Source of the DNA: Lachnospiraceae bacterium
GTDB lineage: Bacteria; Bacillota; Clostridia; Lachnospirales; Lachnospiraceae
Assembly (NCBI GenBank): GCA_015057525.1
Contig: SVEE01000001.1
Span: 310,001 to 374,000 of the forward strand
Reading direction: 5' to 3'
DNA length: 64,000 nt
Under the pieces are notes generated by a model, which saw only the letters and a program-made list of their open reading frames with translations, searched no databases and was not told the DNA's origin. Both the position numbers and the translations under genes were made by a program. Below, piece after piece: positions 4,825-8,792 of this stretch (positions are counted from its first letter, which is position 1; each line of letters starts with the position of its first letter).

Positions 4825-4958
4825 GTATAATTAAAGAGAGGATTTATGAAAAAAACTTTAATTAAAGTATAGAACTAAATTATGAACAAAGTATGACAAG
4901 AGTAACAACATTGTGTAAAAAAGATGTTGCGATTTTGAAAAAATGGGAGAAAAAACTA

Positions 4959-5411
4959 GTGTATAAGCTTAAATTAATAGTAGTAGGTAAGATAAAAGAA
5001 GAATATTATAGGAAAAAAGTTGCAGAGTTTTCAAAGATTATTGAAAAGAAAATCAATTTCCAAATCATAGAATTAGAAGATGAAAGTATTCCTAAAAAGG
5101 CTAGTGATAGTATTATGTCTCAGGTAAAGGAGAAGGAAGGAAATAGAATCCTTGAACACATAGACAATCAGGATTATGTAGTTGCCCTTTGCATAGATGG
5201 AAAAACTACAACAAAAGAAGGAATGAAAAATATTTTTCAAAATGTAACAAATCAAAGTATAGAATGTGTTGATTTTGTAATAGGTGGTTCCTTAGGTTTA
5301 TCTGACAGAGTGGTAAGAAGGGCAAATTATAAACTTAGCTTCTCAAAAATGACATTTCCTCATCAGTTAATGAGGGTTATGTTACTTGAACAGATAATGG
5401 ATTCTATATAA
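4959..5411 (+). CDS. rlmH: RlmH-type 23S rRNA pseudouridine-1915 N3-methyltransferase, lacking the C-terminal tail
   Basis: RlmH is a SPOUT-fold enzyme that uses SAM to methylate pseudouridine 1915 in 23S rRNA helix 69. The N-terminus KLIVVGKIKEEYYRKK, the central QVKEKEG, the SAM-pocket FVIGGSLGLS and LSFSKMTFPHQLMRVML are all typical. The protein ends LLEQIMDSI, whereas family members continue with a conserved tail of the form YRA...PYHK; about a dozen residues are missing. Other frames past the stop do not restore this tail. GTG 4959 is chosen because GGGAGA at 4945-4950 is well placed and the 150-residue product aligns from its first residues. The in-frame ATG at 4893 has no ribosome binding site. 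The stop abuts the stop of the convergent rlmH-like gene at 5412. Family assignment is sure; activity alone is doubtful. Confidence 0.88.
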   Translation: MYKLKLIVVGKIKEEYYRKKVAEFSKIIEKKINFQIIELEDESIPKKASDSIMSQVKEKEGNRILEHIDNQDYVVALCIDGKTTTKEGMKNIFQNVTNQSIECVDFVIGGSLGLSDRVVRRANYKLSFSKMTFPHQLMRVMLLEQIMDSI

Positions 5412-5819
5412 TTATTTGTGGTAAGTAATATTGTTAAGAATAGTATAGGCACGGTACAACTGCTCTGTAAGAACAACAGTAGTTAGGTCTGTACTCATGG
5501 AAAAAGATGATACACTAAAAGTCTCAGTATCATATTCTTCTAAGTGTATGGCATTGTTGGACACAATGAATTCGATACAGGAGAACCCCTTTAGATTAAG
5601 TTCCTTAATTAAGCTTGCAAGTTCTTCTGATGTTATAGTATTTGAACTGGGACTTACAATATATTTTTTTGAGGATTTTGACATATCCAGCTTAATTAAA
5701 TTTTTATAGGTTTTGATAGATAACTTACAAAAGGGTGATGTACGTTTTACATATTCTGCAATCGCCTCTTTAAAGCAAGTGTCTATTTTTTTTGTATCCA
5801 TGTGTATTATGATTTCCAT
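5412..5819 (-). CDS. Divergent RlmH paralogue without SAM-pocket glycines
   Basis: A 135-residue protein that I recognise as RlmH-like by reading it against the family. The N-terminal CFKEAIAEYVKRTSPFCKL matches the family's first helix. ITSEELASLIKELNLKG matches the middle region, and the C-terminus TEQLYRAYTILNNITYHK is the classic RlmH tail. The segment that should be FVIGG reads FIVSN, and the MTFPHQ segment reads MSTDLT, so the SAM pocket is probably lost. A family segment of about 24 residues (QVKEKEG region) is absent. Translation is supported by AGGAG (5830-5834) and a good promoter at 5850-5878. It runs tail to tail with rlmH, with no base between the stops. It may be an inactive paralogue, or a partner that supplies the tail rlmH lacks. 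Confidence 0.72.
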   Translation of the reverse strand: MEIIIHMDTKKIDTCFKEAIAEYVKRTSPFCKLSIKTYKNLIKLDMSKSSKKYIVSPSSNTITSEELASLIKELNLKGFSCIEFIVSNNAIHLEEYDTETFSVSSFSMSTDLTTVVLTEQLYRAYTILNNITYHK

Positions 5820-6761: not shown

Positions 6762-8792
6762 TTGGAAAACAAAGTTATATCTACCAAGGCGGATACGCTT
6801 TTAGCAATTAAAAACCATGTAAAAAGAGCACATATTGAAGATATGGTTATTGTAACAGTGGAAGAGTTTATGAACAAAAAAATAGAGACTTTCCATAAGG
6901 TATATGAACAGTTTAAGGGAGATAAAATTGTAGTACGAAGTTCTCCTAAGAACGAGGATGATGTTACAGCTGTGGATGACCTTCATCTTGCCAATGTATT
7001 AGATGTGGATTCAGGTGATTCAGATCAAGTTTGTGATGCCATATTAAGCATTGTTAAGTCTTATGTTAAGGGCGAATTAAACGAGGGTAGCTTGGAGCTA
7101 ATTAAAGATGAACAGATTTTAATACAACGTGAGTCTAAAAATATAGTTGTATCAGGTGTAGTATTTACACGAGATATTATTCATAACAGACCATATTATA
7201 TGGTTAATTATGATGCCAACAGAAAAACTGATTTTATATCTGTTAGAAAAAATGAAAGAACTCTTTGGATTGCTAGAAATGTATCTAGAGAATTTCTTGA
7301 TATAAAGTTTTTAAAGCTTCTTATGGCAATTAAAGAAATTGAAGATATGTTTCCAGAAGAGGAGGCATTGGATATTGGTTTCGGAATAGATGAAAAAAAT
7401 AATATAATCATATTCCGTGTCAGACAGCTGGTTCGATTGATTGGTAAGAGTAAGACTATGACAGACAGAGAATTTGCTGATACGAAAGCCTTTGCAAAGT
7501 GTTCATATTTGGATACAAACCATATTCTTTCTGATATGGCATACTGTGGTGTTGCTGAGCTTATAGGGCATAATCCAAGACCCCTTGATTATTCCATTGT
7601 AAAGGAATTTATTGCATCCAAAATTTGGAACAGGGGACTTTGTGATTTAGGATATTCTTATGTTCCTGATGGCTTAATACAGAAGATTGGTAACAAACCA
7701 TATCTTTCTTTAAGCTATAGCTTTGAAGGTCTCACACCTGAGGACTTAAATTCTCAGTTAAAGTTCAAATTATATGCGTATTACGAGAAAAAGCTTAAGC
7801 AGGATAAATCATTACATGATAAGCTGGAATCAGAGGTTATGTTTAGCACATTTGATTTTGCTACAGATAAGAGATTAGAGGAGCTTAATGAAGAGGGCTT
7901 TAATCAAGGAGAAATCGAACAAATTAGAACATGCTTATATAAGCTGACTAAGGAAGCTATTTATGCATATGATGAGGTTACGAATGCAGATAAGTCAGCG
8001 TTGTTGCTACTTATTAAGCTGAGACGGCAGATAAGTGACGGTGCTCCTCTTGAAGAAAGCAATGTTATGAAGCTTCACAAATACATTATGGAGTTGACAG
8101 ATTCTATCAAAAAACATGCAGTTCAACAGCTTGCGAGACAAGACAGATATGCTTCCATGGCAAGAAATTTCTGTGAGTCACTTGTTAAGCAGGGATATTT
8201 TACAGAGTCTGAAATGGATGCTTTTAAAGCCTCTATAACAACTGTGTTTATGGATTTTGATATGGATTTTGATAAGTTTATTCATGGAAGTTTAAGTCTT
8301 GAAGAATTTAATGAGACATATGGTCAGCTTAGAATGAGTCCATACAACATAAGAACAGATTGCTATAGTAATATGAGCTTTGAAATAATACCAGATTCTC
8401 CTTCGCGTAAGGATAAAAAATCAAAAGAAGCTAAATTGCTGGATACAAAGAAACTCATGGAGGCATTGAAGAGCGTAGGCTTAAACATATCGCCAGAAAA
8501 ATTCATGGAATTTATGGTTAAAGCGATAAAAAATAGAGAGTTTTTCTTTTTTGAATACTCCAAATCAATTAGTCTTATGCTTGATATAATTATTCAGGTA
8601 GGAGAACTGATTGGTATAGCTAGAGAAGATATGTCTTATCTTGAAATACAGGATTTACTTAGCTATCACAGTAGAGAATCCTATATTCAGATAACACAGA
8701 CAAATAGAAGTATTTATCACTCAAATACATATTTGGTGTTACCTAATGTTATTTTCGATGTGGGGGATATCGATGTAATCGGTAAAAGTTAA
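6762..8792 (+). CDS. PEP/pyruvate-binding (ATP-grasp-like) domain protein, function unknown
   Basis: A 676-residue protein. The first 230 residues or so resemble the ATP-binding domain of PEP synthase and pyruvate phosphate dikinase (IVVRSSPKNED, then ILIQRES, VVSGVVFTRD and GFGIDEKNNIIIFRVRQL). The swivelling phospho-His domain and the PEP-utilising barrel of those enzymes are absent. Instead there is a mostly helical region of about 440 residues with NPRPLDYSIVKEF and NKPYLSLSYSF, which I recall from stand-alone PEP/pyruvate-binding proteins in surface polysaccharide or nucleotidyl-transfer loci. The start is TTG 6762, with AGAGGA upstream; no better ATG exists in frame. It lies between a HAD phosphatase and an alpha/beta hydrolase. 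The reaction is unknown and I do not assign one. Confidence 0.75.
   Translation: MENKVISTKADTLLAIKNHVKRAHIEDMVIVTVEEFMNKKIETFHKVYEQFKGDKIVVRSSPKNEDDVTAVDDLHLANVLDVDSGDSDQVCDAILSIVKSYVKGELNEGSLELIKDEQILIQRESKNIVVSGVVFTRDIIHNRPYYMVNYDANRKTDFISVRKNERTLWIARNVSREFLDIKFLKLLMAIKEIEDMFPEEEALDIGFGIDEKNNIIIFRVRQLVRLIGKSKTMTDREFADTKAFAKCSYLDTNHILSDMAYCGVAELIGHNPRPLDYSIVKEFIASKIWNRGLCDLGYSYVPDGLIQKIGNKPYLSLSYSFEGLTPEDLNSQLKFKLYAYYEKKLKQDKSLHDKLESEVMFSTFDFATDKRLEELNEEGFNQGEIEQIRTCLYKLTKEAIYAYDEVTNADKSALLLLIKLRRQISDGAPLEESNVMKLHKYIMELTDSIKKHAVQQLARQDRYASMARNFCESLVKQGYFTESEMDAFKASITTVFMDFDMDFDKFIHGSLSLEEFNETYGQLRMSPYNIRTDCYSNMSFEIIPDSPSRKDKKSKEAKLLDTKKLMEALKSVGLNISPEKFMEFMVKAIKNREFFFFEYSKSISLMLDIIIQVGELIGIAREDMSYLEIQDLLSYHSRESYIQITQTNRSIYHSNTYLVLPNVIFDVGDIDVIGKS

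Follow-up and report, generated by a model that had tools for sequence, protein, structure and literature searches.

Two genes of the RlmH family lie tail to tail within the window, the stretch of 64,000 nucleotides of a Lachnospiraceae genome that we analysed here. The gene on the plus strand, which we call alpha, encodes a protein with the SAM pocket of RlmH, and the gene on the minus strand, beta, encodes a protein with the catalytic C-terminal tail. Their stop codons abut (TAA at 5409-5411 on the plus strand, 5412-5414 on the minus strand). The locus contains the following features:

4945..4949, plus strand: GGGAG, the likely ribosome-binding site of alpha, as read from the sequence
4959..5411, plus strand: alpha, a tail-less RlmH of 150 amino acids with a GTG start and a TAA stop at 5409-5411; SAM pocket intact, helix-1 KR, R142 and YHK tail lacking (reading frame, alignment, residue counts)
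5274..5300, plus strand: FVIGGSLGL of alpha, SAM-binding bight 2 (alignment; role according to PMC5430550)
5352..5366, plus strand: TFPHQ of alpha, SAM-binding bight 3, with H129 (alignment; role according to PMC5430550)
5412..5819, minus strand: beta, an RlmH paralogue of 135 amino acids with the tail and without the SAM pocket (alignment, residue counts)
5415..5423, minus strand: YHK of beta, the catalytic C-terminal tail, corresponding to E. coli Y152 H153 R154 (alignment; mutants inactive in PMC5430550)
5448..5465, minus strand: EQLYRA of beta, which includes E138 and R142 in E. coli numbering (alignment)
5742..5747, minus strand: K25 R26 of beta, corresponding to E. coli R25 R26 and found in 56/56 beta rows of the alignment (alignment)

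A preliminary description of this locus, made from the DNA letters, had placed both genes at these positions and in this orientation, and the window sequence agrees. It had also noted FVIGG and TFPHQ without the YRA...YHK tail in alpha, and in beta the tail without the SAM-binding motifs; the alignment bears this out, with both FVIGG glycines and PHQ gone from beta. The helix-1 KR pair and R142, which it had overlooked, are further monomer-B residues that are divided, being present in beta only.

Both proteins match the Pfam SPOUT_MTase profile PF02590, for which the cut-off is 27 bits. The match of alpha spans profile positions 2-141 of 154 (E-value 9e-42, 143.1 bits) and stops before the tail, and that of beta spans positions 1-154 of 154, tail included (E-value 4e-17, 63.2 bits). 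On the NCBIfam RlmH equivalog models, alpha scores 172.2 bits on one model with a cut-off of 172 and remains under the cut-offs of the others, and beta remains under all of them. Both chains presumably adopt the trefoil-knotted SPOUT fold. No third PF02590 match was found at an E-value of 0.001 in the window's genome (2.35 Mb, 97% complete), so that a second full-length rlmH, which the preliminary description had named as the kind of result that would contradict a split enzyme, is absent at this threshold. All 11 tested catalytic and SAM-site residues are present in the window's pair when the two chains are taken together, and neither protein carries SAM pocket and catalytic tail on one polypeptide, a combination seen in 0/54 of the pairs that we collected.

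In the E. coli RlmH homodimer, the SAM site is provided by one monomer, and the C-terminal tail of the other contributes essential residues (PMC5430550); the composite active site from which the idea of a split enzyme had started is thus correct. Koh et al. (2017) assign the SAM-site residues to monomer A, and R25, R26, R142 and R154 together with the essential tail to monomer B. The Y152F, H153F, R154A and E138 mutants of the E. coli enzyme show no detectable activity (PMC5430550).

We found that this division between two monomers recurs as a division between two genes. Our alignment comprised E. coli RlmH and 98 full-length, 54 alpha and 56 beta rows; the full-length rows are mostly high-scoring, and the conservation that they give is an upper view, because divergent full-length RlmH proteins from among the suspected splits were left out. 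Alpha keeps, and beta has lost, the residues contributed by monomer A in E. coli RlmH: G103, G104, G107 and H129 are present in 54, 52, 54 and 54 of the 54 alpha rows and in 15, 0, 0 and 1 of the 56 beta rows. For the residues contributed by monomer B the opposite holds, though their loss from alpha is not complete: R25 (as K), R26, R142, Y152, H153 and R154 (as K) are each found in 56/56 beta rows and in 24, 6, 9, 0, 0 and 2 of 54 alpha rows, respectively. If close substitutes are allowed (A at 103, A or S at 104, K or R at 25, D at 138 and K, R or H at 154), 53/54 pairs are complementary for all 11 tested residues, which 98/98 full-length rows hold on a single chain, and there is no pair (0/54) in which one subunit also holds the residue set of the other. 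Among the 53 columns conserved in at least 85% of the full-length rows, alpha alone keeps 26, beta alone 12 and both chains keep 2 (S123 and E138); the other 13 are mixed. Conservation falls below 50% in 15 of these columns in alpha and in 30 in beta; only 2 are shared, compared to 8.5 expected (hypergeometric p 8e-5).

Some positions depart from this pattern. E138, part of the proposed catalytic triad, is also retained by alpha (51/54), which a clean split does not predict, and the alpha copy may also serve the site or the dimer helix; the beta of genome G794 carries K at this position. In the dimer patch, positions 122, 125 and 127 are hydrophobic in 56, 55 and 55 of the 56 beta rows, and position 74 in only 11/56. 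The rRNA contacts of E. coli monomer A, K11, K42 and R43, give the split no support, because they are partly or not conserved in full-length rows and not kept in alpha. The position aligned with K42 is K in 76/98 full-length rows, the other two contacts not being conserved there; K at position 11 occurs in 44/56 beta rows and is commoner there than in alpha, and 53/56 beta rows are gapped where E. coli has K42 and R43. At the alpha loci of G218, G223, G007, G015 and G294, the Pfam match continues for a few positions beyond one or two stop codons, and these stretches are possibly relics of a tail.

The pair is the rule in the genus of the window's organism. Among its 37 genomes, 30 encode alpha and beta, five have a single full-length RlmH without the pair, and two, which are 79% and 64% complete, have no match. 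Alpha without beta occurs in 0 of these genomes, as does alpha or beta alongside a full-length RlmH. A tail-less RlmH that lacks its paralogue, named beforehand as a refutation, was thus encountered in 0/30 tail-less genus genomes. The chance of such a perfect split among the 35 informative genomes, calculated by hand, would be 1 in 324,632 if they were independent, a value that only describes the fit because the genus genomes are related. The arrangement of the genes is conserved as well: 29/30 pairs lie tail to tail on one contig, with the pair of G030 on two contigs, and the stop codons are between 26 nt apart and 29 nt overlapping in 28 pairs and 109 nt apart in G015. The sodium:solute symporter gene of the window adjoins alpha in 30/30 genus genomes and its HAD hydrolase gene adjoins beta in 25/30; the latter was not found in the fetched stretches of G008, G011, G012, G026 and G029. 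At the five full-length genus loci, neither neighbour was present within up to 1.5 kb.

Two observations concern the surroundings of beta. An open frame of 676 amino acids at window positions 6762-8789 adjoins the HAD gene and has no Pfam match at 1e-3; parts of it were matched beside the HAD gene in a few genus genomes. Furthermore, genome G005 has a second beta next to a HAD gene on another contig (L073), for which a second alpha was not found, perhaps reflecting a mixture of strains in the assembly.

Since the same pair occurs in 30/37 genus genomes, including the single-contig assembly G018, and also in the single-contig assemblies G657 and G1178 from outside the family, it is neither a product of chance nor an assembly error. 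Both genes are moreover under purifying selection, which speaks against decay. We compared 11 pairs of closely related genus members, selected by us and with some genomes used in more than one pair: dN/dS was 0.05-0.16 for alpha and 0.06-0.26 for beta; the ratios are rough, because dS exceeds 1 and is saturated in several to many of the pairs. Genus co-occurrence, conserved neighbours and dN/dS together rule out an assembly error or a pseudogene at this locus. The broader notion that the two genes are remnants of an RlmH that is being lost, or assembly artefacts, could draw on relatives without any RlmH match and on frameshifted or broken copies such as those of G562 and G912. We regard its probability as close to nil, given the reciprocal conservation in 54 pairs, the dN/dS values well below 1 in the 11 genus pairs, the symporter beside every genus alpha and the HAD gene beside most genus betas, and the presence of the pair in G018, G657 and G1178.

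Beyond the genus, such pairs are found in several bacterial groups. The 54 pairs that we collected comprise 30 from the genus, 10 from ten other genera of the family, 13 from ten other family codes and one from a Clostridiales MAG (L065); L066, which is a full-length RlmH with tail, duplicate loci, the G513 fragment and divergent full-length suspects were left out of the counts. In the family sample of 397 genomes, 11, including that of the window, encode a beta that outscores every full-length RlmH, and all 11 encode alpha. The class sample (391 genomes) contains the pair in nine and the phylum sample (398 genomes) in six genomes, again with the window's included. No genome with alpha only was met in these three samples, in agreement with the genus; outside the genus, re-reading covered genomes that had two matches or whose best match was unusually weak, and not all of those, so that some alpha-only genomes could have been missed among the weak single matches that were not read for the tail. 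The converse case, beta with no alpha found, is G597 of the class sample, where beta begins 6 bases from a contig end; G513 of that sample has a beta fragment only.

Gene order outside the genus is variable. The two genes are convergent and adjacent in G076, G106, G142, G223, G768, G832, G1035, G1146, G1178 and L065, and convergent with about 2.5 kb between them in G167. They are adjacent in tandem in G294, G500, G574, G657, G794 and G847, lie on the same strand 1.1 to 46 kb apart in G218, G354, G278, G742 and G460, and are found on two contigs in G198 and G540. The tandem pair of G657 (G657:C1:1494966-1495702), a single-contig genome of 1.5 Mb from outside the family, is very divergent with long branches and possibly an extreme case.

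Many other suspected splits were rejected. They proved to be contig edges or gaps (G099, G131, G290, G463, G709, G560, G454, G785), frameshifted or broken copies (G562, G912, G568, G1038), an insert (G433), a second match under the cut-off (G939), a gene cut off before PHQ (G735) or single full-length RlmH proteins, some of them divergent (G806, G720, G302, G415, G409, G250, G105, G411, G108, G145, G925, G950, G995, G873, G980, G1134, G1138). An intermediate state with full-length RlmH and beta was sought in genomes with a full-length match: in 10 genomes with two PF02590 matches, no beta was present in the 7 to 14 kb surrounding the full-length gene, in a search in which the second matches were not all located and G652 was left out.

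Extra rlmH copies of a different kind were observed in three genomes. In G897, one of the 10 genomes just mentioned, the 3' end of rlmH is duplicated about 2.5 kb from the full-length gene (L268:4848-4955), and partial or broken extra copies that include the 3' part lie 2.5 to 7 kb from the full-length gene in G897, G568 (L196) and G912 (L189). These copies resemble the insertion of an element at the 3' end of rlmH, which is the insertion site of staphylococcal cassettes. Finally, 66/398 genomes of the phylum sample have no PF02590 match; with completeness of at least 90% and contamination of at most 5% required, the figure is 65/393. Several of the genomes without a match share single family codes, for example f130, and some lineages may have lost RlmH completely.

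Taken together, the sequence data make it highly probable, in our view, that an obligate heterodimer of alpha and beta takes the place of the RlmH homodimer. We infer the physical heterodimer, its methylation activity and the target as follows. Alpha would fold the SAM pocket. Beta would have lost SAM binding; what it has kept is the Y-H-K tail, the E138-R142 helix, the lysine-arginine pair of helix 1 and the larger part of the dimer patch. Its tail, laid against the SAM of alpha, would complete a single active site, and the enzyme would make N3-methylpseudouridine 1915, a helix-69 nucleotide of the 23S rRNA. The split would thus make genetic a division that in the homodimer is already functional: the KD of E. 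coli RlmH for a first SAM is 5.6 uM, and the other site is empty below 500 uM (PMC5430550). A 2022 review takes the asymmetry of the RlmH dimer to suggest that one cofactor site is used in catalysis, and its main text does not mention a heterodimer (PMC9508554). The RlmH homodimer therefore seems to need only one of its two sites, and because a one-site dimer can divide its residues between two genes, we expect alpha to bind SAM, beta to provide the tail and basic residues and the heterodimer to form m3-psi-1915.

Alpha could, alternatively, act as a homodimer without a tail, or with another residue as the base, which would make beta dispensable or a regulatory leftover. Some RlmH orthologues do stop at H153 and lack R154 (PMC5430550), and alpha retains E138, both of which would suit such an enzyme. 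Yet the E. coli tail mutants are inactive (PMC5430550), and alpha has lost R142 in 45/54 and R26 in 48/54 rows, two residues that beta holds in 56/56. Beta is also under purifying selection in the tested pairs and accompanies alpha in 30/30 genus genomes, and we therefore consider an alpha homodimer very unlikely. Slightly different is the question of the target. A genuine heterodimer might methylate another RNA or another position, m3-psi-1915 having been lost in this organism. RlmH may indeed be dispensable, because 66/398 phylum-sample genomes have no PF02590 match, and a search of the window's assembly for an exact 19-base helix-69 pattern found nothing. However, the tested monomer-A and monomer-B residues persist in one or the other subunit in 53/54 pairs, the pair and full-length RlmH are mutually exclusive in the genus, and the window's genome has five pseudouridine-synthase matches, which leaves another target improbable.

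How could such a pair have come about? We calculated two trees from which the tail columns had been removed: a quick one of 156/208 rows, and a careful one of 72 rows in which the longest branches (G657 and G768) were left out. Beta forms one group in both (quick tree, 99 SH-aLRT; careful tree, 100/99 and 99% of the bootstrap trees), and it still does so on the columns that beta has kept, tail included. For alpha, the quick tree needs eight changes, four of them forced by starred branches, and the careful tree, for which the bootstrap had not settled, needs six, all forced; these changes may be gains or losses, and we read them as separate tail losses because regain of a tail seems unlikely. 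A single clade of all alphas was rejected (p-AU 4e-7). The alpha of G1178 falls inside the full-length RlmH of its own genus (100/98), that of G540 inside the RlmH of its own family (100/98), and those of G1035 and G1146 beside the full-length RlmH of their own families (100/93). With a single group of betas in the trees, and alphas that originate several times among resident RlmH proteins, beta looks acquired. This fits an order of events in which beta was acquired and the tail was then lost in the resident gene, with the long branches as a concern.

We lean towards a scenario in which beta had a single origin, perhaps in an RlmH of the family to which the window belongs, and was passed between families of the Bacillota as a SAM-less tail donor. 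Each time that it settled, the resident tail would have become redundant, resulting in a one-way ratchet from homodimer to obligate heterodimer. On the columns kept by beta, with the tail included, the nearest full-length row belongs to the window's family for 6/10 beta rows listed, a family that makes up 36/98 full-length rows. The tail would be lost first, followed by R26 and R142 in either order, and several stages of the process may still be visible, with G1178 as the youngest. As expected of a young stage, the alpha of G1178 lacks the tail but retains K25, R26, E138 and R142. Compared with three relatives, its end has an 11-nt gap, through which part of the tail is missing and tail-like letters now stand out of frame.

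The competing view of the origin is that the gene was duplicated locally and in inverted orientation, separately in each lineage, and that the single beta group is a long-branch artefact of repeated losses of the same SAM-pocket residues. Long branches are a feature of the beta rows, which parallel losses of the same columns can draw together; the tail-to-tail order is common; and the convergent gene ends of G1178 are spanned by a perfect 24-nt inverted repeat (4-nt loop), which covers the last codons of beta (L176:1450-1501). This repeat may serve as a two-way terminator or be left over from an inverted copy, and since it spans both gene ends, the end of the G1178 alpha may have been copied from the side of beta. 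Several results nevertheless argue for acquisition. The G1178 beta is 53% identical to the beta of G847, which belongs to another family, and 31% to the RlmH of its own family. Among the 98 full-length rows, ranked on the beta-kept columns, own-family RlmH occupies ranks 71, 83 and 98 for the beta of G1178, 59 and 95 for that of G540 and 64-76 for that of G1035. Placement of beta with its own family's RlmH was rejected for all three families tested (f89, f145 and f26; p-AU 0.0004, 0.01 and 0.006), and beta remains one group on the kept columns including the tail. Identity, p-AU values and ranks together rule out that beta is a copy of the resident rlmH in f89, f145 and f26, families other than that of the window. 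Local duplication is consequently the less likely origin in our assessment, though one that deserves to be taken seriously. Direct traces of a mobile beta were not seen: a query with the beta alignment found no relative among 263 pattern matches in viral contigs, and plasmid and phage matches to the G847 beta were all below 60% identity, with at most 35% among the matches listed (20 of 36 and 20 of 24). The listed matches are rlmH or ybeA where annotated, and their spans exceed beta, like those of ordinary RlmH.

Among SPOUT methyltransferases RlmH is the smallest, and its symmetric dimer is believed to work with one site. A natural enzyme whose half-sites reside on different genes would directly test this one-site use. 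Since each chain shows the residues of its own side, the 26 alpha-only and 12 beta-only columns provide a ready map of the two roles. This map covers positions 81, 95 and 96 on the tail side and 133 on the SAM side (E. coli numbering), none of which was mutated in PMC5430550. The pair would furthermore represent a bacterial transition from homodimer to obligate heterodimer, which the trees suggest was repeated several times and whose early and late stages would exist side by side. For genome annotation, this means that an intact activity may be present where a truncated RlmH and an unnamed relative are scored.

The preliminary description knew of no described split RlmH, and none appeared among the matches listed in the open-access PMC literature. 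The split of RlmH thus appears to be new, with homodimeric RlmH and a heterodimer of SPOUT paralogues (Upa1-Upa2, assumed) already known. Trm6-Trm61 and METTL3-METTL14 are eukaryotic Rossmann-fold enzymes that combine one SAM-binding with one non-catalytic subunit. As two-subunit RNA methyltransferases they can be likened to the pair, but they are not SPOUT proteins; Trm6-Trm61 is treated in PMC5007650. In the SPOUT methyltransferase NHR for nosiheptide resistance, an engineered wild-type/R135A heterodimer keeps reduced activity, so that one functional subunit suffices; unlike the natural split pair, this heterodimer was made in the laboratory from one gene (PMC4409310). The yeast proteins Upa1 and Upa2 are two SPOUT paralogues whose heterodimer is assumed by the authors. 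They differ from the pair in being eukaryotic, in originating from a whole-genome duplication and in not belonging to RlmH, and reciprocal half-sites were not found in the parts of that report drawn on here (PMC8994135). With the RlmH homodimer itself (E. coli YbeA, S. aureus OrfX; PF02590), the pair shares the sequence family, the SAM-pocket motifs, the dimer patch, the tail and a composite site that would be built from two chains. The homodimer consists of two identical chains with two potential sites, whereas the pair, as known here from sequence, consists of two genes that each encode half of the residues and would form at most one site.
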